Origin: Pseudazoarcus pumilus
GTDB lineage: Bacteria > Pseudomonadota > Gammaproteobacteria > Burkholderiales > Rhodocyclaceae
Direction of reading: 5' to 3'
Length of the DNA stretch: 64,000 nt
NCBI RefSeq assembly: GCF_002872475.1
Contig: NZ_CP025682.1
Coordinates: forward strand, 3,038,001-3,102,000
Shown here: one piece after another, positions 25,231 through 38,593 of the stretch
How the letters are laid out: every line of letters starts with the position of its first letter
How positions within the stretch are numbered: position 1 is the first letter of the stretch
Notes under the pieces: generated by a model
What the model was told of the DNA's origin: nothing
Seen by the model: only the letters and a program-made list of their open reading frames with translations
Databases searched by the model: none
Position numbers and translations under genes: made by a program

Positions 25231-26550
25231 CTAGAAGCCCAGCACCTTGGACGGCAACCACAACACGATCTGCGGAAAGGCCATGACTACGCCCGCGACC
25301 ACGAGCTGCAGCAGGATGAACGGGATCACGCCGCGATACATGTCGGGCAGGGTGATCTCCGGTGGGCTCACCCCGCGCAGGTAGAAGATCGCCGGCGCCA
25401 TCGGCGGCGTCAGGTAGCCGGTCTGCAGCATGATCATGAAGAGGATGCAGAACCAGACCACGTCGAAGCCGGCGGCTGCGACCAGCGGCGCGAAGATCGG
25501 GATGAAGATCAGCGTGACCGAGGCCCATTCGAGGAAGAAACCCGCGATCAGGGTCAGGAACAGCACCAGGAACAGCAGCCCCCAAGGACCCAGGCCGAGC
25601 GCGTCGATCAGGTTGTTGACCACCATCATGCCGCCCGTGCCGGCGAACACGCCGGTGAACATGTTCCCTGCGAGCAGGATCAGCATGATCATCGAGGTGA
25701 TGCGCAGCGTGGCCATCAGTGCGTCGCTGAACATGCGCATGTTGAAGCGGCGGTAGAACACCGCCAGCCCCACCGAGCACAACGCGCCCAGCGCGGCTGC
25801 CTCGGTCGGCGCCGCCCAGCCCATGATCATCGAGCCGAGCACCGAGAAGATCATCACCAGCGGCGGCACCAGCGCGTAGACGGTGAGACGGATCTTCTCC
25901 CACAGGCCGGGGTCGTCGGGCGAGGGCTCGCTGCTCGGACCGTACTCGGGCCTGATCACGCAGATGGCGATGATGTAGATGGCGTAGAGGGTCGCCAGCA
26001 GCAGGCCGGGGAAGACCATGCCCATGAACAGGTCGCCGATCGACACGTTGGCCAGCGGGCCGATCACCACCGCCACCACCGACGGCGGAATGATGGTGCC
26101 GAGCGAGCCGCCGGCGCAGATCGTGCCGCTGATCAGCGCCTTGTTGTAGCGATGCTTGAGCATCGGCGGGATGGCGAGCAGGCCGATCACGGCCTCGGCC
26201 GCGCCGATCACGCCGGTCGAGGCGGCGAACAGGATGGCCATCAGGATGGTACCGACCGCCAGTCCGCCCGGCAGGCGCTTGGTCCACAGGTGGATGGCTT
26301 CGAACAGTCGGTCAGCGATGCCGGAACGTTCCAGCATCGAGCCCATGAACACGAACAGCGGAACAGCCGCGAGCACGAAATTCGAGCCGACCTCCTCGAT
26401 CTTGTCGATGAGCAGGAAGATCAGGTTGTCACCGAAGGTGACGAGGCCGAAGATCAGCGTCGTCGCCATCAGCGAGAAGGCCACCGGGAAGCCGATGAAG
26501 ATCAGCACCAGCAGCACCGGGAACATCAGCAGGGCGAGGTATTCGGACAT
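25231..26550 (-). CDS. dctM: TRAP transporter large permease DctM
   Basis: A 439-residue membrane protein with about 12 helices and DctM landmarks: FMGSMLERSGIADRLFEA, STGVIGAAEAVIG, IIPPSVVAVVIGP, GWAAPTEAAALG and TPPMAPAIFYLRG. With DctQ it forms the membrane component for the receptor at 27156. The stop/start overlap with dctQ is TGATG. Confidence 0.93.
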   Translation of the reverse strand: MSEYLALLMFPVLLVLIFIGFPVAFSLMATTLIFGLVTFGDNLIFLLIDKIEEVGSNFVLAAVPLFVFMGSMLERSGIADRLFEAIHLWTKRLPGGLAVGTILMAILFAASTGVIGAAEAVIGLLAIPPMLKHRYNKALISGTICAGGSLGTIIPPSVVAVVIGPLANVSIGDLFMGMVFPGLLLATLYAIYIIAICVIRPEYGPSSEPSPDDPGLWEKIRLTVYALVPPLVMIFSVLGSMIMGWAAPTEAAALGALCSVGLAVFYRRFNMRMFSDALMATLRITSMIMLILLAGNMFTGVFAGTGGMMVVNNLIDALGLGPWGLLFLVLFLTLIAGFFLEWASVTLIFIPIFAPLVAAAGFDVVWFCILFMIMLQTGYLTPPMAPAIFYLRGVSPPEITLPDMYRGVIPFILLQLVVAGVVMAFPQIVLWLPSKVLGF

Positions 26551-27068
26551 CAGGCAGCCCCCCCGGTGGAGGACTTGCCGGTCAACACCTGCACACCCTT
26601 GATGATTTCACCGACGATCTGCAGCGTCAGCACGACGATGGCGATCAGGAACACCAGTCGGTACGGCCACACCACCGGATTCCACGACGAGTGTCCGGAA
26701 GTCTCCATGTCGACCCAGGAAGTTTCGAAGTAATCCCACAACCCCCAGCTCAACCACAGCATGAAGGGCAGGATGAAGAACAGGTAGCCGGCGACGTCGA
26801 TGATCGCGCGCGTCTTCGCAGAGACGCTGCCGTAGATCAGGTCGACGCGCACGTGCGAGCCCTGGCGCAGCGTGTAGGCCGCGCCGAGCAGGAAATGCGA
26901 GCCCATCATCATGTAGCCAATCTCGAAGGCCCACACGGTAGGGGCGTTGAGCAGATAGCGCGAGAACACCTCGTAGGCCGTCGCGAGCACGAGCGGCACC
27001 ACGAGCCAGGCGGCGATCACACCGACGTTGCCGGTGATGCGCTCGATCAGGCTCAGCAGCTTTTGCAT
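26550..27068 (-). CDS. dctQ: TRAP transporter small permease DctQ
   Basis: A 172-residue four-helix membrane protein with the DctQ signature GAAYTLRQGSHVRVDLIYG. The start at 27068 begins at the usual N-terminal amphipathic helix (MQKLLSLIERITG); the longer frame to 27116 adds non-family residues. The ribosome site is weak. It lies between dctP (87 bp upstream) and dctM. Confidence 0.9.
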   Translation of the reverse strand: MQKLLSLIERITGNVGVIAAWLVVPLVLATAYEVFSRYLLNAPTVWAFEIGYMMMGSHFLLGAAYTLRQGSHVRVDLIYGSVSAKTRAIIDVAGYLFFILPFMLWLSWGLWDYFETSWVDMETSGHSSWNPVVWPYRLVFLIAIVVLTLQIVGEIIKGVQVLTGKSSTGGAA

Positions 27069-27155
27069 GCTTGAAATCCCGGAAGCGTGAAAAGAGAACG
27101 CCGCAGCCGGCGCCACCCACGAACGGGGCGGCGCCGGTGCGGCGCGCGAAGGCGA

Positions 27156-28244
27156 TCAGTTCTTGCCGTCGACCTTTACGTTGCGATAGCGGTCGGCGTC
27201 GGCCCAGAGCTTTTCGAACTCTTCCTGGCTCTTGAGCACGCGCGCGAACCATTCGCTTTTCTCGGCCTGCTTGCCGGCCCACTCCTTGCCGACGCGGCGC
27301 GCCTCGTACTGCACTTCCGGCTCGAGATCGATGACCTCGTTGCCCTGCTCGCGATAGAACTCAAGCGACTTGGCGTCTTCCTGGCCGATCTTCAGCCACG
27401 ACTCGTAGGTCACGAGCTTGGCGGTGGTCTCGATCAGGGCCTGGTCGGCCGGCGTGAGCTTGCCCCACATGCGCTTGTTGAGCACCAGCTCGAACGGTGC
27501 CGTGGGCTGATGCACGCCCGGGATGATCAGGTACTTGGCGACCTTGGAGAAGCCCGGGGAGATGTTCTCCCACAGCGTGCCCCATTCGGTGGCGTCGATC
27601 ACGCCGCGCTCGAGCGCGGCGTAGATCTCGCCGCCCGGCGTGGTTACCGGCGCCGCGCCCATGGCCGCCGACATCTCGATCCATGCACCGGCCGTGCGCA
27701 GCTTCAGGCCCTGCAGGTCTTCCAGGGTGCGCACCGGCTTGCGCGAGTGCAGGAACACTTCCGCCGTGCGGATGAACAGCGGGAACGAGATCACGTCGAA
27801 TTCCTTCTCGCGGAACTCGCGCTGCAGCTCGACGCCGCCACCCTCATAGAGCCAGTGCAGCATGCGCTCGGAATCGAAGGAGCCGGCATAGCCGCCGAAC
27901 AGCACCGTGGTGGTGTCCTTGCCCCAGTCGTAGCCCATCCAAAGGTGGCCCATGTCGGCAATGCCGTTCTTGACCGTCTCGCTGACCTTGAGCGCGCCGC
28001 CCAGCGCACCGCCCGGGAAGACCTGGACCTGCATGCGACCGCCCGAGAGCTGCTCGAGCCGCTCGGCGAAGGCCTTGGCGCCGATGTCCATCAGCGGTCC
28101 GCCGGCCCAGCCAGTGGCCATCTTCCACTTGCACGAGCCGACCTCGGGACAGGCCGTATCGGCCGCGACGGCCGACTGCGCGCCGAACACCGACATCAGG
28201 CCCACGGCCAGCGTGGCCAGTACCGTATTGCATTTCTTCCGCAT
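27156..28244 (-). CDS. dctP: TRAP transporter solute receptor DctP (third copy)
   Basis: A 362-residue periplasmic receptor: signal peptide of ~27 residues ending AVAA, a Cys pair near the mature N-terminus (TACPEVGSCKW), then TGWAGGPLMDIGAKAFAE and the family motif LQGLKLRTAGAWIEMSAAMGA. WGTLWENISPGF resembles receptors of the DctP/TakP 2-oxo-acid group, so a 2-oxo- or hydroxy-acid ligand is plausible. AAGGAG lies 8 bases before the ATG. It is the first gene of the unit running to 21285, under operator copy 3. Confidence 0.92.
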   Translation of the reverse strand: MRKKCNTVLATLAVGLMSVFGAQSAVAADTACPEVGSCKWKMATGWAGGPLMDIGAKAFAERLEQLSGGRMQVQVFPGGALGGALKVSETVKNGIADMGHLWMGYDWGKDTTTVLFGGYAGSFDSERMLHWLYEGGGVELQREFREKEFDVISFPLFIRTAEVFLHSRKPVRTLEDLQGLKLRTAGAWIEMSAAMGAAPVTTPGGEIYAALERGVIDATEWGTLWENISPGFSKVAKYLIIPGVHQPTAPFELVLNKRMWGKLTPADQALIETTAKLVTYESWLKIGQEDAKSLEFYREQGNEVIDLEPEVQYEARRVGKEWAGKQAEKSEWFARVLKSQEEFEKLWADADRYRNVKVDGKN

Positions 28245-29781: not shown

Positions 29782-31290
29782 TCATGCGGCTTCGAGCGCG
29801 GCGCGCCGCCTGCGCCACTGACGCTGGAACTGGCCGTAAAAGCCGTAGATCAGCGAAAGCGCGCTCAACGCCAACAGCGTACCGGCGATCGGTCGCATCA
29901 ACACACTGCTCCAGTCAAAGCTGCTCAGCATCAGTGCGCGACGCAGGCTGATTTCGGCGACCGGACCGAGCACCAGACCGATGATCAACGGTGCGATCGG
30001 GTAGTCGAGCTTGCGCAACAGGAAGCCGAATGCGCCGAAAACCAGCATGACCACCACATCCATCACATTGTTGCGCAACGCATACACGCCGGTCATGCAC
30101 AGCACGACGATGCTGGGACCGATGAGCGCATACGGCGCATCGAGAATCTTCGCGAAGTGACGTGACGCCTTGAGACCGAAGAAGATCATCAGCAGGTTGG
30201 CGATGAACATGCCGATGAACACGGAATAGACCAGTTCCTTGTTCTGCACCAGCAGCATCGGTCCGGGCACGATGCCGTGGATCGTCAGGCCGCCGATCAT
30301 CACCGCCGTCGCCGCACTGCCGGGAATGCCAAGTGCGAGCAGGGGCACCATCGAGCCGCCCACCGCGGCGTTGTTCGCGGCCTCGGGTGCGGCGATGCCC
30401 TCCGGCTCGCCGGTACCGAATTTCTCCGGGTGGCGCGACCAGCGCACCGCTTCGCTATAGCTCATGAAGGCCGCGGTGGTGGCACCGACACCGGGCAGGG
30501 TTCCAATGATGGTACCCAGGACCGATGAGCGCGCCAGCGTGCCCTTCATCGCCATCATCTCCCTGAACTTGGGCAATGCCGTGGAGACTTTGGTGATCGC
30601 CTCGCCCTCCGGCACGCGTTCGCTGAAGCGTACCAGCACCTCGGACAGAGCGAACATGCCGATGATGGCCGGAATGAAGCCGATGCCGGACAGCAACAGG
30701 TCGTTGCCGAAGGTGAATCGGCTGCCTCCGGTCAGCGGATCGATGCCGACCGTGGCGATGACCAGCCCGAGAATGCCGGCAATCAGTGCCTTGGTGACCG
30801 AGGTCGTGCCGATGGATGCGATCGCCGTGATCCCCAGCACAGCCAGCGCGAAGTACTCCGCCGGGCCGAAGCTCAATGCGACCTTGGCCAGCGGAGGTGC
30901 GGCCAGCATCAGCACCACGGTACCGAAGATACCGCCCACCGCCGATGCGGCGAGCGCGATTCCGAGCGCTTTCCCGGCCTGCCCCCTCTTCGCCATGGGA
31001 TAGCCGTCGAGCCCGGTACAGGCCGCTTCCGGGCTACCCGGCGTGTTGAACAGGATTGCCGAGATGGAACCGCCGAAGGTGGATCCGACATACACGGAAC
31101 CGAGCAGCAGAAGACCTTCGATGGGGCCGAAGCCGAAAGTAAATGGAATCAGCAGCGCCACGCCGACCACGCCCGTCAGCCCCGGCATCGCACCGAAGAT
31201 GATGCCCCACATCATTCCGAAAACGATGAACAGCAAGGTCGTGGGGTGGCTCGCCATGTATTGCGCAGCCGTCAGAAAGCCGTCCGTCAC
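29782..31290 (-). CDS. tctA: Tripartite tricarboxylate transporter permease TctA
   Basis: A 502-residue membrane protein, about 11-12 helices, of the TctA family. Landmarks are GAMPGLTGVVGVALLIPFTFG, GSVYVGSTFGGSISAILFNTPGSP and GVGATTAAFMSYSEA, repeated in two halves. It forms the large membrane subunit with TctB. The start is GTG at 31290, chosen because AAGGAG lies 8 bases upstream. Confidence 0.93.
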   Translation of the reverse strand: MTDGFLTAAQYMASHPTTLLFIVFGMMWGIIFGAMPGLTGVVGVALLIPFTFGFGPIEGLLLLGSVYVGSTFGGSISAILFNTPGSPEAACTGLDGYPMAKRGQAGKALGIALAASAVGGIFGTVVLMLAAPPLAKVALSFGPAEYFALAVLGITAIASIGTTSVTKALIAGILGLVIATVGIDPLTGGSRFTFGNDLLLSGIGFIPAIIGMFALSEVLVRFSERVPEGEAITKVSTALPKFREMMAMKGTLARSSVLGTIIGTLPGVGATTAAFMSYSEAVRWSRHPEKFGTGEPEGIAAPEAANNAAVGGSMVPLLALGIPGSAATAVMIGGLTIHGIVPGPMLLVQNKELVYSVFIGMFIANLLMIFFGLKASRHFAKILDAPYALIGPSIVVLCMTGVYALRNNVMDVVVMLVFGAFGFLLRKLDYPIAPLIIGLVLGPVAEISLRRALMLSSFDWSSVLMRPIAGTLLALSALSLIYGFYGQFQRQWRRRRAALEAA

Positions 31291-31365
31291 TTCATTTCTC
31301 CTTCGCGCCGCTGATCACGCCGCTGCGCCTGCGGCAGACGTTGGCAGCGCGTGCACGCACATACA

Positions 31366-31875
31366 TCAGTAGATCAGCCTGCTGAAGGTCTCGAAGATCC
31401 CGGCGCCGCGCGGCAACGGCATCGACAGGACCTTGACGAAGACCAGCGTCACCAGACCGGTAAACACGAACGGGTAGATCAGTGCGATGCGCCAGTTGCC
31501 GTAGCCGATCAGCCGTGTCGCCAGCAGCAGGAAGATCACTGTCGCCAGGATGAATCCGATCGTCTGAAGGCCGACGAAATAGCCCAGGATCAGCACTGCG
31601 GCCCCGCCAAGCTTGCGCCAGTTCACAACGGACGCCTCGCCGTCATCCGTTCGGACGTTGCGGACTTCGCGGGTCGCGAGGTAGGTGAAGAATTGCTGCA
31701 GGAGTTGCACCAGTGCGATAACGGCGACCACCGCCAGCAGGATCTTGGGCCAGAAGTCGGAGTCGATCCCCGCATAACGGGCGAACTTCTGAAAATCGTC
31801 CGCAGCGAACCACAGGTAGATGGACCCCGCGAACAACAGCAACGAGAAGGCGCCATCGATGGCAATCCGGCTCAT
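31366..31875 (-). CDS. tctB: Tripartite tricarboxylate transporter small permease TctB
   Basis: A 169-residue membrane protein with four helices and the TctB layout (SRIAIDGAFSLLLFAGSIYLW, DSDFWPKILL, LGYFVGLQTIGFILAT). The ATG at 31875 follows GGAGAC; the 20 residues of the longer frame are not family-like. It lies between tctC and tctA. Confidence 0.87.
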   Translation of the reverse strand: MSRIAIDGAFSLLLFAGSIYLWFAADDFQKFARYAGIDSDFWPKILLAVVAVIALVQLLQQFFTYLATREVRNVRTDDGEASVVNWRKLGGAAVLILGYFVGLQTIGFILATVIFLLLATRLIGYGNWRIALIYPFVFTGLVTLVFVKVLSMPLPRGAGIFETFSRLIY

Positions 31876-32030
31876 CTGGAAGTCTCCTTGAGGATGTCTT
31901 TCACGCGCCTGTCCGCGTCGGTCACCAACCGACATTCGTGGCGAATCGGTGGCCGAAGCGACCCCACCGCACGCCGCAGGTCCGAACGGGTCAGGACTGC
32001 GGCGGGCAAGCGGGGGTCAGGTCAGGTGAA

Positions 32031-32996
32031 TCAGATGTGGCCGAGCTTCTGCAGCACTGCGCGATAGGTCTCGATTTCGCTCTCGAGGAAGGTCTTGAAC
32101 TCGTCCGGTCCGAGCAGCACGGAACGGTACTGAAGGCCGCTCTTCGACTCGATGTCCTTGTAGCTCTTGGCCTGGACTGCCTGCTCGAACACCGAATAGA
32201 GCGCGTCGGCGTGGGCTTCTTCATCGCCCTGCTTGAGCGCGAAACCGCGCCAGCGTCCGAGCGTCACGTCCACCCCCAGTTCGCGGGCGGTCGGCACATC
32301 CGGCAGCACCGGCAGACGCTCCTCGGCGAACACCATCAGCGGACGCAGGTCACCCGCCTCGATCATCGAGCGCGTCGGGCCGTATTCCTCATACATCACG
32401 TCGACGTGCCCGCCGAGCACGGCCGAGATGACTTCAGCACCTGAGTCGAACGGTACGGCACTCAGTTCAGCGCCGGATCGCAGGTTCCACAGGCCCACCA
32501 GGGTTTCGTCGAAACCGGCCGCACCGGTCATCGCGATATTGAGCTTGCCCGGACTCTTGCGAGCGTGGTCGATGAGGTCCTGGGCACTCTTGATCGGGCT
32601 GTCGGATTTCACGTAGAACAGACCCTGGTCGTACTGCACGCGCGCCACCGGCATAAACTTGGTGGCATCGATGCGGCCCTTGGCGTGGTTGATGACTTCT
32701 TCAGGCCCGATCGCCATCATCGTGTAGCCGTCGGCGCGGCGGCTGAAGAACTGCGTCGCGGCAGGAATGCCACCACCACCGGTAACGGAGATGCCCACCA
32801 GCGACTGGCCGGTGATGTCGCCAAAAGGCTGGCCGATCGCGCGGATGAACAGGTCGGTTCCGCCACCGGGGCCGAACTGGTTGATCACTTCAACGTTACG
32901 CGCGGGATAGTCCTTGGTGTCGGCAATGGCCGCCTGCGACACCACGCCGAGGCTGAGCATCATCAGCGCCAGGCACTTCGAAATTCTGATGTGCAT
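32031..32996 (-). CDS. tctC: Bug-family solute receptor TctC
   Basis: A 321-residue periplasmic receptor of the Bug/TctC family typical of betaproteobacteria. The signal peptide ends AIA before DTKDYPARNVE. Landmarks are NQFGPGGGTDLFIRAIG, VTGGGGIPAATQF and GHVDVMYEEYGPTRSMIEAGDLRPLMV. AAGGAGACG precedes the ATG. It is the first gene of tctCBA-dioxygenase, with a perfect operator 89 bp upstream. The adjacent malonate decarboxylase operon makes malonate or a substituted malonate a candidate ligand. Confidence 0.9.
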   Translation of the reverse strand: MHIRISKCLALMMLSLGVVSQAAIADTKDYPARNVEVINQFGPGGGTDLFIRAIGQPFGDITGQSLVGISVTGGGGIPAATQFFSRRADGYTMMAIGPEEVINHAKGRIDATKFMPVARVQYDQGLFYVKSDSPIKSAQDLIDHARKSPGKLNIAMTGAAGFDETLVGLWNLRSGAELSAVPFDSGAEVISAVLGGHVDVMYEEYGPTRSMIEAGDLRPLMVFAEERLPVLPDVPTARELGVDVTLGRWRGFALKQGDEEAHADALYSVFEQAVQAKSYKDIESKSGLQYRSVLLGPDEFKTFLESEIETYRAVLQKLGHI

Positions 32997-33084
32997 CTTC
33001 GTCTCCTTGTTCTGTTGGTATTTTCGTCCTGCACACGCCAAGTCAAAGGGCTTCGATTTGATCTAGGTCAATGCACGCCCTGAA

Positions 33085-33179: not shown

Positions 33180-34109
33180 TCAGCCGTTTCGTGCGAGCCA
33201 CGCGGCAGAACCGGCGACCGAACGGAATTCATCGCTGGCGCGCGCGCGGATGCCGGGAAAATCTTCCTCGATCATCCGCGTCAGGGCGCGCCCGGGACCG
33301 ATTTCGAGCACCACATCGACGCCGTACTCGATCATCGACTGCAGGCAGTCATGCCACTGCAGTGGCTCACAGATCTGCCGCGACAGCCACGCAACGGTGT
33401 CCTCATGGCGCATCAAGGCACGACCATCGAGGCCACTGAGCAAAGTCGCCCTGGGGCGTGCCCAGTTCGCGGCAGACAATGCCGCTGCAAAAGGCGGCAC
33501 CGCCGCCGCAATGAAGTGCGTATGGGATGCAAGGCTCACCGACAGCCGGCGCAGGTGGGTCGCACCGTACTCCGGCGCCTGCCGCTCGAACCGTTCGACC
33601 GCCTCCTCGGGACCGCCGATCACGACATGGCGCGGCCCGTTGACGATGGCCAGCGCCGCCCCGTGCGCCGGCGCAAGCGCTTCGGCCTGCACGGCGTCGA
33701 TGCCGATCACGGCGCTCATGCACAGGGGGCCGCAAGCGGCCGCAGCGGCGGCGTCCATGTTCTGAGCGCGCAGCGCCGTGAGTGCCAGCGTGGTCTGGGC
33801 ATCCCACACGCCGGCCGCACCATGAGCAGCCATTTCGCCCACGCTGTATCCCGCGCACAACGCCGGCCGAACGCCCTCGGCACGCAGCGCGGCGACCGTC
33901 GCGAGCGCATGACCGACGACCAGAAGCTGGGCGATGCGGTTGCCGCACAGCTCCGACTCGGTGACGCGCTCGGCCATCGTGCGCACATCGAAGCCGAGCT
34001 GTGCCGACACGAGGTCGAGCACCTCGCCCGCCGCCGGTTCGCGGGCAAGCTGCCCGAACATCGCGGGATGCTGCCCGCCCTGTCCTGCGCAGATGAACGC
34101 TATGCGCAC
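33180..34109 (-). CDS. mdcH: Malonate decarboxylase malonyl transferase MdcH
   Basis: A 309-residue FabD-like malonyl-CoA:ACP transferase that loads malonyl onto the MdcC acyl carrier to start the decarboxylase cycle. The nucleophile is S89 (GYSVGE), with GQGGQHP at the N-terminus and the catalytic His in LASHTHF. The start is GTG at 34109, overlapping the tail of an mdcB remnant. It is the last gene of the mdc operon. Confidence 0.9.
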   Translation of the reverse strand: MRIAFICAGQGGQHPAMFGQLAREPAAGEVLDLVSAQLGFDVRTMAERVTESELCGNRIAQLLVVGHALATVAALRAEGVRPALCAGYSVGEMAAHGAAGVWDAQTTLALTALRAQNMDAAAAAACGPLCMSAVIGIDAVQAEALAPAHGAALAIVNGPRHVVIGGPEEAVERFERQAPEYGATHLRRLSVSLASHTHFIAAAVPPFAAALSAANWARPRATLLSGLDGRALMRHEDTVAWLSRQICEPLQWHDCLQSMIEYGVDVVLEIGPGRALTRMIEEDFPGIRARASDEFRSVAGSAAWLARNG

Positions 34110-34231
34110 GCGTCACGCCCGAAGTCTTCGCAAGCGGCAACGAACAGGGTCGCCGCAAGCAGGTCGGCGGCACCCCCCGGACTCAGGCTGCGATCGACTG
34201 CCCGAAGATGCGCCACCGCCACGCTCACGCC
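34100..34231 (-). pseudogene. mdcB: C-terminal remnant of mdcB
   Basis: After the mdcE stop one frame encodes ~43 residues containing SLSPGGAADLLAATLFVA, the characteristic C-terminal motif of MdcB/CitG triphosphoribosyl-dephospho-CoA synthase (normally ~290 residues). No start, ATP-binding or central part exists: the upstream sequence is mdcE in another frame. The frame ends at the mdcH start. This is best read as the scar of a deletion that removed mdcG and most of mdcB. MdcB makes the prosthetic-group precursor for MdcC. Confidence 0.75.
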
Positions 34232-34956
34232 ACGACGCCCGAACGCACGGCCACGGCGATCTCCAGTGCGTGCGGTCGTCCGCCGCGCTCGGCGCCCAGA
34301 CGCCGACGCGGATCGTCCTCGGCGTCGACATGCGACAACGCCTTCGCCAGTTCGGCGCGCAGGTCGTCGGCGAACACGCCGTGCAGGCCACCGATGCGCA
34401 CGAAGTTCACCACCCCCGGCCCCAGCACGGGAAGGCTGCGCGAGAGCTCGACAAGGCGCTCTTCGGGGATGCGCGTGACGCGCGACATCGCGCTTGGCGC
34501 CATCAGGCGCAGTTCCGCATCGGGCAATGCATAGCACGCACCGGTCGCCATGCCGGTGGCCATGAAGCCGCCACTGATGGCCAGGGTGTGCACCAGACCG
34601 ATCACGCGATGACCCCCGCGGCGCGCCGCGTCGAGACATTTCGTGAGGTGCGCGATGCAGCCGTTGTTGCCCATCAGCTCGTCCCAGCGCGACAGGCGCT
34701 GACCCGAGTTGTCGACGATCAGCACGATTGGCCGGCCGGGTGCGCTGCGCATCGTGTCCAGCACGCGACGCGACATCGCGAGCGCCAGATCGACGCCGAT
34801 GTGGGCCTGATCGGTAGTCCCGATCACGGTCACGGTCTGGCCATCAACGCTTGCAGTGCCGGCAAGCAGCTTGCCCTGGCGCACGACCGCATGTTCCTCG
34901 CCGAAGAGCTCGACCAACAGGCGTTCGGACGGATGGGCCGCAGTGGTGGCGTTCAT
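34225..34956 (-). CDS. mdcE: Malonate decarboxylase gamma subunit MdcE
   Basis: A 243-residue carboxyltransferase-fold subunit that, with MdcD, decarboxylates malonyl-S-ACP. Landmarks are GTTDQAHIGVDLALAMSRRVLDT, VDNSGQRLSRWDELMG and AISGGFMATGMATGACYALPDA. It is slightly short at the C-terminus for the family, consistent with a deletion joint just beyond it. The ATG overlaps the mdcD stop (ATGA). Confidence 0.9.
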   Translation of the reverse strand: MNATTAAHPSERLLVELFGEEHAVVRQGKLLAGTASVDGQTVTVIGTTDQAHIGVDLALAMSRRVLDTMRSAPGRPIVLIVDNSGQRLSRWDELMGNNGCIAHLTKCLDAARRGGHRVIGLVHTLAISGGFMATGMATGACYALPDAELRLMAPSAMSRVTRIPEERLVELSRSLPVLGPGVVNFVRIGGLHGVFADDLRAELAKALSHVDAEDDPRRRLGAERGGRPHALEIAVAVRSGVVA

Positions 34957-35849
34957 CGCGATGTCTCCTCCAGGGTGCCGAGCAGCCGATTGAAGGCGTC
35001 GGGCTCGAGTTCCGGCACGCGTTCGGGTGCGTCCACGCCCAGGGCGGCCCACACGTCCACCCCGTCGCGGCATTCGGCAAAGCGGGTCACGCGCGCCTCC
35101 AGGCGCGCCTGTTCGGTCTCCAGCGAATCGAGATCGTGCGCGCGCGACCGGCCCAGATATCCGGCGATCGCATCGCGAAAGGCGTCCATTCCGTCGGCGA
35201 CCAGCGCGTCGGCCTCGCCGAGCAGGCGACGGTGCTTGCCGCCCATCGTGCGCCACACCAGCGCGCGATCGCGCGAGTCGAATTCCTCCACGCCCTCGAC
35301 GGCCTCGATCACTTCTGGCCCCGAGATGGAAAGACGGCCTTCCTCGCTGATCACGATCCAGTCGCAGGACCGCGCGATGATGGACATGCCGCCGTAGCAG
35401 CCGTTCCTGCCACCGATCGCGACGATGACCGGAATGCCGGCCGCGCGCACCGCAAGCACCGCACGCTGGATCTCGCCCATCGCGATGAGGCCGGCATTGG
35501 CCTCCTGAAGACGGACGCCGCCCGAATCGATGAGCAGGATCACCCCGTCGGGACGCACGTCGAGCGCTCGTTCGATGAGTCCGGTCAGTTTCGCGCCGTG
35601 CACCTCGCCGACCGAGCCGCCCATGAAACTGCCCTCCTGCGCGGCAATCAGCACCGGCCGCCCGGCCAGCAGGCCTTCGCCGACGACGACTCCGTCATCG
35701 AAGGCCACCGGCATGTCGAGCAGCGGCAGATGGGGGCTGGTGCGCCGCGCAAGCGGGCCGCAGAACTCGCGGAATGTGCCGGCGTCGAGCAGGCCGCGCA
35801 CGCGCGTGCGGGCACCGGCTTCGAGAAAGCTGTGACGCGCTATCTTCAT
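34953..35849 (-). CDS. mdcD: Malonate decarboxylase beta subunit MdcD
   Basis: A 298-residue biotin-independent carboxyltransferase subunit. Landmarks are QEGSFMGGSVGEVHGAKL, LLIDSGGVRLQEANAGL and GRNGCYGGMSIIARSCDW. It pairs with MdcE to decarboxylate malonyl-S-MdcC to acetyl-S-MdcC and CO2. The ATG at 35849 overlaps the mdcC stop (ATGA). Confidence 0.92.
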   Translation of the reverse strand: MKIARHSFLEAGARTRVRGLLDAGTFREFCGPLARRTSPHLPLLDMPVAFDDGVVVGEGLLAGRPVLIAAQEGSFMGGSVGEVHGAKLTGLIERALDVRPDGVILLIDSGGVRLQEANAGLIAMGEIQRAVLAVRAAGIPVIVAIGGRNGCYGGMSIIARSCDWIVISEEGRLSISGPEVIEAVEGVEEFDSRDRALVWRTMGGKHRRLLGEADALVADGMDAFRDAIAGYLGRSRAHDLDSLETEQARLEARVTRFAECRDGVDVWAALGVDAPERVPELEPDAFNRLLGTLEETSR

Positions 35850-36160
35850 GCCGGGGCTCCCTTGAGGTCGGCCGCGGCCTGGTCGAGGCGCAGGCACACG
35901 ACCGCCGGCGTCGCACCCCCGTCGTTGATCGAGATGCGCACGTCGGCCAGCCCCTGGCGCGTGACGAAGTCGCTCAGCACCTTGTGCCAGGTGCGCTCGT
36001 AGCCCCGGATGGCGGTGTCGACGACCGCCTCGCAGCGGCCCGACAGCTCGGCGCGCTCGAGCAGTACTTCGAGATTGCCCGAGCCGACGACGCCTGCATG
36101 GGCAAAGTCGTTGGCCGGTGCCATGCTGCCGTGATCGAAAGAGAATTCCAGATGTTCCAT
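35846..36160 (-). CDS. mdcC: Malonate decarboxylase acyl carrier protein MdcC
   Basis: A 104-residue carrier (delta subunit). The serine that receives 2'-(5''-phosphoribosyl)-3'-dephospho-CoA is S27 in GVVGSGNLEV. The length matches the family. It lies 7 bp after mdcA. Its activation normally needs MdcB and MdcG, which are not intact here. Confidence 0.92.
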   Translation of the reverse strand: MEHLEFSFDHGSMAPANDFAHAGVVGSGNLEVLLERAELSGRCEAVVDTAIRGYERTWHKVLSDFVTRQGLADVRISINDGGATPAVVCLRLDQAAADLKGAPA

Positions 36161-36167
36161 GTTCGTC

Positions 36168-37838
36168 TCACCAGTTGCGGAAACGCGCGGGGGGATCGTA
36201 GAGCCCGCCCGACCAGCGCACCAGATCCTTGATCGAGCGTGCCGCGAGCAGGTCGCGCGTCGCCAGCCGCTTGTCCACGCCGAGGTCCTCGGGATAGCTC
36301 ACGGCGCCCTTGGCCCGCAGACGACGCACCATTTCGGGATCGCGCGCCATACCCACCTCGGTGTAGCCGGCCACGCCACGAATGGCCTGTTCGCGCTCTT
36401 CGGGGCCGTCGCACAGCAAGAGGTTGGCGATGCCCTCTTCGGTGACGATGTGGGTCAGATCGTCGCCATACACCATGACCGGCGGCAGCGGCAGCCCGAA
36501 GCTCTCCTGCAGCTTCCAGGCGTCGAGCCGCTCGACGAAGGTCGAACTGAGCCCTTCGCGGAAACTCTCGACGATCTGCACGACGAGCTTGCGACCGCGC
36601 GGCATGCCGTTGCCACGGTGTGCCTCGCGTCCGGCCATCAGCCAGCTTTCGCTGCCGTGGCGGCGCGCCCGCGACTCCGAACCGAAGTTCGGCGCGCCAC
36701 CGAAGCCCGTGATGCGCGAAAGCGTGGCGGTCGAGGAGTTGCCTTCGAGATCGATCTGCAGGGTCGAGCCGATAAACAGATCCGAATAATGGCCAGCGAT
36801 CTGGCAGAAGATGCGGTTCGAGCGCATCGACCCGTCGCGTCCGGTAAAGAACACGTCCGAGCGCTCGGACACGTAGTTTTCCATGCCGAGTTCCGAGCCC
36901 GCGCAATGAATGCCCTCGACGAAGCCCGACTCGATCGCCGGAATCAGCGTGGGGCAGGGATTGACCGACATGTATTTGCAGATCTTGCCGCGCAGACCGA
37001 GATCCGCGGCGTAGGTCGGCAGGATCAGCTCGATCGCGGCGGTATCGAAGCCGATGCCGTGATTGAGCCGCGCCACCCCGTACTTCTCGTAGATGCCGCG
37101 AATCACCATCATCGCCATCAGGATCTGGACCTCGGTGATGGCGGCCGGATCGCGCGTGAAGATGGGCTCGATGTAATAGGGGCGCGGCGCTTCGACCACG
37201 AAGCTGACCCAGTCGCCGGGGACATCCACACGCGGCACGCGGTCGACGATGCGATTGACCTGCGCGATCAGGATGCCGGACTTGAACGCCGTCGCCTCGA
37301 CGATGGCCGGCGTGTCCTCGGTGTTGGGCCCGGTGTAGAGGTTGCCTTCGTGATCGGCGGCATCGGCGGCAATGAAACTCACGTTGGGCGTGAGGTCGCA
37401 GAAATACCGACCGTACAGTTCGAGGTAGGTGTGGATCGCGCCGACCTTGAGCCGCCCTTCCTTGACCAGACGCGACAGGCGCAGCCCTTGCGGGCCGGAG
37501 TAGCAGAAATCGAGCCGTTCCGCGATGCCGCGCTCGAACACGTCCAGATGCGGGGCGAGCGCGATGTTCGACTGGATGATGTGCAGGTCGTGCACGCGCT
37601 CGGGCGACACTTCGGCCAGACATTCAGCGAGAAAATCGGCATGCTTCTGGTTGTTGCCTTCGATGCACAGACGGTCACCCGGTTCGATGACGGCTTCGAG
37701 CAGGGCCACCACATCGTCCGGCGCGACTACCTTGTCCTTCGCGAGCGCCGCGCCGCGCTGCATGCGCGCACAATAACGCTCGCGCAGCGTTCCCCAGTCC
37801 CGTACCGCTCCATCGATCGCTGTCCCGGAATCACCCAT
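36168..37838 (-). CDS. mdcA: Malonate decarboxylase alpha subunit MdcA
   Basis: A 556-residue acetyl-S-ACP:malonate ACP transferase, which exchanges acetyl for malonyl on MdcC. Landmarks are EGNNQKHADFLAECLAEV, VSFIAADAADHEGNLYTGPNTEDTP and RITGFGGAPNFGSESRARRHGS. The ATG at 37838 is chosen because AAGGTGG lies 8 bases upstream and the length then fits the family; ATG 37871 would add 11 residues. A perfect operator lies 69 bp upstream. It is the first gene of mdcACDE-H. Confidence 0.92.
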   Translation of the reverse strand: MGDSGTAIDGAVRDWGTLRERYCARMQRGAALAKDKVVAPDDVVALLEAVIEPGDRLCIEGNNQKHADFLAECLAEVSPERVHDLHIIQSNIALAPHLDVFERGIAERLDFCYSGPQGLRLSRLVKEGRLKVGAIHTYLELYGRYFCDLTPNVSFIAADAADHEGNLYTGPNTEDTPAIVEATAFKSGILIAQVNRIVDRVPRVDVPGDWVSFVVEAPRPYYIEPIFTRDPAAITEVQILMAMMVIRGIYEKYGVARLNHGIGFDTAAIELILPTYAADLGLRGKICKYMSVNPCPTLIPAIESGFVEGIHCAGSELGMENYVSERSDVFFTGRDGSMRSNRIFCQIAGHYSDLFIGSTLQIDLEGNSSTATLSRITGFGGAPNFGSESRARRHGSESWLMAGREAHRGNGMPRGRKLVVQIVESFREGLSSTFVERLDAWKLQESFGLPLPPVMVYGDDLTHIVTEEGIANLLLCDGPEEREQAIRGVAGYTEVGMARDPEMVRRLRAKGAVSYPEDLGVDKRLATRDLLAARSIKDLVRWSGGLYDPPARFRNW

Positions 37839-37906
37839 CGTCATCACCACCTTGCTTTTTTCCGCCGACATCGGCAACGCAAACGTGCGCTACATCTAAA
37901 ATACTA

Positions 37907-37918: not shown

Positions 37919-38044
37919 CAGCCTGCATTCTGCCCACCATACACCGGGGACGCAAGCATGCGTCTGTTCGAACCACGCACGGCGGCGCAAACCACACTCG
38001 AACGGACGACCGAAAAACACTGTCATTGATTGCGGAGGTTCAAC

Positions 38045-38593
38045 GTGACCAGCTCGCCAACCAACGAACGCCAGACGCGCGAGGCGCTCCCCACCTTCAC
38101 GGACTGTCACGCGGGCATCGTCGGCCATCTGGACGCGCTGGGCGAACTCGACGCCCTGCTCGCCTCGGCCGCGCGCGCGCGGAAAATCGCGCAACAGGCG
38201 GTGGAATTCTTCGACGAGATGATTCTCGAACACCACGAGGACGAGGAGCGCGAACTGTTTCCCACGGTGCGCAAACATGCCGCCGCAGGCGAAGAACGCG
38301 AACTCGTCGATTCGCTGTGTGACCGTCTCACGGCTGACCACCGTTCGCTCGAGAAGCAATGGCGTGCGATCAAGCCGCAACTGGCGCGCATCGCCGCCGG
38401 CAAGGATACCGCTCTGGACTCCGAAGCCACCGCCGCGCTGATCGCCGGCTACAAGGCGCACGCCCACTTCGAGGAAACCCGCCTGCTGCCGCTCGCCGCC
38501 GAGATCCTCGGCCGCAGCGACGCCGAACTGGCACGCCTGGGATACGCGCTGCACATCCGCCACGCCACGCGCACGGCCAAGCCCTTCGGCTGA
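38045..38593 (+). CDS. Hemerythrin HHE-domain protein
   Basis: A 182-residue helical protein with the HHE pattern: DCHAGIVGHLD, ILEHHEDEERELFP, LTADHRSLEKQW and KAHAHFEETRLLPLA supply the His and Glu ligands of a non-haem di-iron site. It should bind O2, NO or iron in the cytosol. The GTG start at 38045 is chosen because CGGAGG lies just upstream; a TTG at 38030 would leave no site. Confidence 0.85.
   Translation: MTSSPTNERQTREALPTFTDCHAGIVGHLDALGELDALLASAARARKIAQQAVEFFDEMILEHHEDEERELFPTVRKHAAAGEERELVDSLCDRLTADHRSLEKQWRAIKPQLARIAAGKDTALDSEATAALIAGYKAHAHFEETRLLPLAAEILGRSDAELARLGYALHIRHATRTAKPFG

Follow-up and report, generated by a model that had tools for sequence, protein, structure and literature searches.

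We found that the malonate decarboxylase (mdc) operon in a 64,000-nucleotide stretch of the Pseudazoarcus pumilus genome (NZ_CP025682.1; the whole stretch is the window) has no mdcG and only a 42-codon remnant of mdcB, and that the same genome carries a second, complete mdc operon. We consider it probable that the presence of two operons made these genes redundant, that mdcG and then mdcB were lost from the window operon, and that its acyl carrier protein MdcC is primed in trans by the distant MdcB and MdcG.

The window operon and its mdcB remnant

The window operon lies on the minus strand in the order mdcA-C-D-E-[mdcB remnant]-H, and its features were as follows.

36168..37877, minus strand: mdcA, malonate decarboxylase alpha subunit (TIGR01110, E 4e-270, over cut-off)
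35846..36160, minus strand: mdcC, acyl carrier protein, prosthetic-group serine S27 kept (TIGR03130, over cut-off)
34953..35849, minus strand: mdcD, beta subunit, starting MKIARHSF (TIGR03133, over cut-off)
34225..34956, minus strand: mdcE, gamma subunit (TIGR03134, E 1e-61, 208.7 bits, under the curated cut-off of 237)
34100..34228, minus strand: mdcB remnant, the first mdcB codons joined in frame to the last ~35 codons
34209..34217, minus strand: mdcB deletion junction, the exact point being ambiguous inside this interval
33180..34109, minus strand: mdcH, malonyl-CoA:ACP transacylase (TIGR03131, E 2e-82, 277 bits, under the cut-off of 298)
29782..33041, minus strand: tctC-tctB-tctA-like tripartite tricarboxylate transporter genes downstream of mdcH (recognised from their translations; synteny with the sister species by tblastn)

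The genes for MdcA, MdcC, MdcD, MdcE and MdcH, which a biotin-independent malonate decarboxylase needs, were all present and intact, and the NCBIfam matches to these five bore out the view of the first-pass annotation that the other subunits are complete with S27 retained. The MdcH of the second operon likewise scored under the TIGR03131 cut-off of 298. A profile search of the 64-kb window gave no MdcG match, which agreed with the original claim that the operon has lost mdcG and nearly all of mdcB.

Known biotin-independent operons are mdcABCDEFGHR in Klebsiella and mdcABCDEGHLM in Pseudomonas, and in such systems MdcB and MdcG make and attach the phosphoribosyl-dephospho-CoA group (PMC5534430). 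The window operon shares with them subunits A, C, D and E, the transacylase H and the conserved MdcC serine, but differs in the absence of mdcG, in an mdcB cut to 42 codons and in its neighbouring TTT- and TRAP-like transporter genes.

The remnant frame starts with a GTG at 34228 and ends with a TAG at 34100. In the sequence GTGA, this start codon overlaps the stop codon of mdcE (TGA, ending at 34225), and the 3' end of the remnant overlaps the mdcH start (GTG, 34109). A short frame between mdcE and mdcH had been described before as ~43 codons at 34100-34240; the frame itself was found, with 42 codons and a span of 34100-34228. Its proposed ending in an MdcB motif held, as the remnant aligned with positions 244-271 of the 272 in the MdcB model TIGR03132 (E 1.4e-6), at the C terminus of the profile, and its other profile matches were to related MdcB/CitG models only. 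When the assembled sequences were aligned, the window mdcB differed from that of the sister species by one in-frame deletion of 744 bp (248 codons). A deletion keeps the frame one time in three by chance, so the in-frame length gives only slight support to selection for coupling to mdcH; mdcE and mdcH may be translationally coupled through the remnant. The dN/dS of the remnant relative to the sister gene was 0.51, calculated over ~33 codons, too few to judge constraint.

A gap of this kind could also come from misassembly or from a sequencing artefact, but we regard this as very improbable. The genome is a single contig of 3,225,512 bases (99.94% complete), and the missing 744 bp are an exact multiple of a codon. 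A collapse between the two operons is implausible at ~67-71% nucleotide identity from mdcA to mdcE, and the absence of mdcG is common to the independently assembled genome of the sister species.

A second, complete operon in the same genome

The search of the rest of the genome for mdcB and mdcG that had been advised earlier located both genes, complete and adjacent, at G000:C1:2228544-2229745, ~0.84 Mb from the window operon, indicating that they were lost from the operon and not from the genome. The order there is TRAP-transporter-like genes followed by mdcA-C-D-E-G-B-H. MdcG was over the TIGR03135 cut-off; MdcB matched TIGR03132 (E 2e-78) with a score of 263.6, slightly under the cut-off of 282.4, and was over the cut-off of PF01874. 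Full-length MdcB and MdcG are thus encoded outside the window operon and may act on the window MdcC. The two operons share the pathway, the order mdcA-C-D-E-...-H and the TRAP genes alongside; they differ in that the second keeps mdcG and mdcB, belongs to another clade and encodes an MdcC and an MdcE only 43% and 44% identical to those of the window.

The first-pass annotation had offered two outcomes, namely that the missing functions are borrowed or that another cofactor route is used. The first gained support from the second mdcB/mdcG pair; the second did not. That the window enzyme uses another cofactor or modifying enzyme is, in our judgment, hardly credible: the absence of mdcG and mdcB from the window operon is all that favors it, while both proteins are complete in the same genome and the MdcC serine and its flanking residues are unchanged. 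CitX, considered as a substitute for MdcG, was rejected as it had no match in the whole genome.

Relatives and the probable order of the losses

The sister species, represented by the congeneric MAG Azoarcus sp. MCMED-G28, was the sole other genome of the genus compared. Its locus is syntenic with the window (phoD-like, hemerythrin-like, mdcA, C, D, E, H, tctCBA, cupin and gntR genes), its mdcE is 91% identical to that of the window, and its operon likewise lacks mdcG. In contrast to the window, however, it has an intact mdcB of 288 codons (TIGR03132, over cut-off), with the same GTGA overlap leading from mdcE straight into mdcB and then mdcH. The comparison with relatives proposed at the outset thus found the lack of mdcG, but not the short frame, in the sister. 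A second mdc operon is also present in the sister, on a contig (L014, G001:C119) that breaks inside mdcG. Because the contig ends there, the MdcG profile search of this draft genome was empty, and that result is misleading as to the absence of mdcG.

Operons of the window type with a complete E-G-B-H order were found in an Ectothiorhodospiraceae MAG, Azospirillum, Ancylobacter, a Xanthobacteraceae MAG and Roseovarius. Since these outgroup operons keep mdcG and mdcB, the ancestral order would most simply have been the complete E-G-B-H, with mdcG lost first and mdcB second. In the MdcE tree, the window copy grouped with Alphaproteobacteria and Ectothiorhodospiraceae while the second copy grouped with the host's family, and because the copies fall in different lineages, the tree suggests that the window operon entered by horizontal transfer and afterwards lost genes already provided by the resident one. 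Among 200 family genomes, two mdcE copies occurred only in this genus.

The operon would have arrived as a second one, with cofactor-maturation genes that duplicated the functions already encoded in the family-type operon. The loss of mdcG would predate the split from the sister species, if it was one shared loss, and mdcB would later have been gutted by the in-frame 744-bp deletion with the mdcE-to-mdcH overlaps retained. E-G-B-H, E-B-H and E-remnant-H form a three-state series in which cofactor genes are lost where a second operon is present; the intermediate state, E-B-H, is preserved in the sister species. The gap is most simply read as an ordinary, redundancy-driven loss of duplicated genes and not as new chemistry.

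Elsewhere in the family, the genomes bearing MdcG were generally the same as those bearing MdcE; one genome (G085) had no MdcG match, and its MdcE was incomplete, lying at the edge of a contig. A genome with a window-type MdcE and no MdcG match (G502) was set aside as a further case of loss, as its contig stops 77 bases past mdcE and is uninformative. Two others (G070 and G145) were rejected as precedents for a detached mdcG, since their mdcG and mdcE lie on separate contigs because contigs end within or beside mdcG. The MdcG match of G070 (L038, G070:C33:298154-298516), apart from mdcE, has one in-frame TGA and lies at a contig end.

Selection on the retained genes

Purifying selection acts on the subunits that remain: between the window and the sister, dN/dS was 0.12 for mdcA, 0.16 for mdcC, 0.10 for mdcD, 0.19 for mdcE and 0.13 for mdcH, values that span the whole divergence, much of it possibly older than the mdcB deletion. 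There is no acceleration on the window branch after the loss of mdcB, since polarisation by outgroups assigned 24 amino-acid changes to it and 37 to the branch of the sister (P 0.12).

These data bear on the main rival to priming in trans, that the window operon is in early decay, with MdcC staying apo, the enzyme dead and the other genes not yet eroded. Of the seven mdc genes, two are absent or disrupted, and the two MdcC copies are just 43% identical, as such decay would have it, but all other frames are open with low dN/dS and an unaccelerated window branch. The operon was also kept in both species though their ancestor already lacked mdcG, if that loss was shared. We consider early decay unlikely.

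Probable cofactor supply in trans

Most likely, the window operon still yields its enzyme, with the distant operon supplying the MdcB and MdcG that prime it. One such pair could in principle serve two operons because these catalysts act on a separate carrier protein; the distant MdcB and MdcG would charge the window MdcC with phosphoribosyl-dephospho-CoA, giving a working decarboxylase. S27, which we equate with the Ser25 that is modified in Pseudomonas MdcC (PMC5534430), was invariant in an alignment of 9 homologues, and a C-terminal patch (INDxGATPAVVxLRLDQA) was largely kept in both MdcC copies. Against priming in trans, recognition of the window MdcC by the distant MdcG is not assured at 43% overall identity, and our literature search found no paper on cross-use of MdcG or of MdcG/CitX. 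More tentatively, and with somewhat less than an even chance, one MdcB/MdcG pair may prime two MdcCs of different ancestry and this low identity while the remnant is kept as an mdcE-mdcH coupling element. If priming occurs in trans, a single MdcG should accept carrier proteins that differ considerably. The case also cautions that one operon alone is insufficient to call a pathway broken.

Neighbouring genes

At gathering thresholds, no RNA elements were found around the window operon. Downstream, two transporter sets lie on the minus strand at 25231-28244 and 29782-33041, TRAP (DctPQM-like) and TctCBA-like, with a cupin-type gene and a divergent GntR-type regulator between them; the TctCBA-like set is probably for malonate uptake. 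A hemerythrin-like gene (38030-38593, plus strand) is divergent from mdcA, and the sister species keeps this neighbour at 91% identity.
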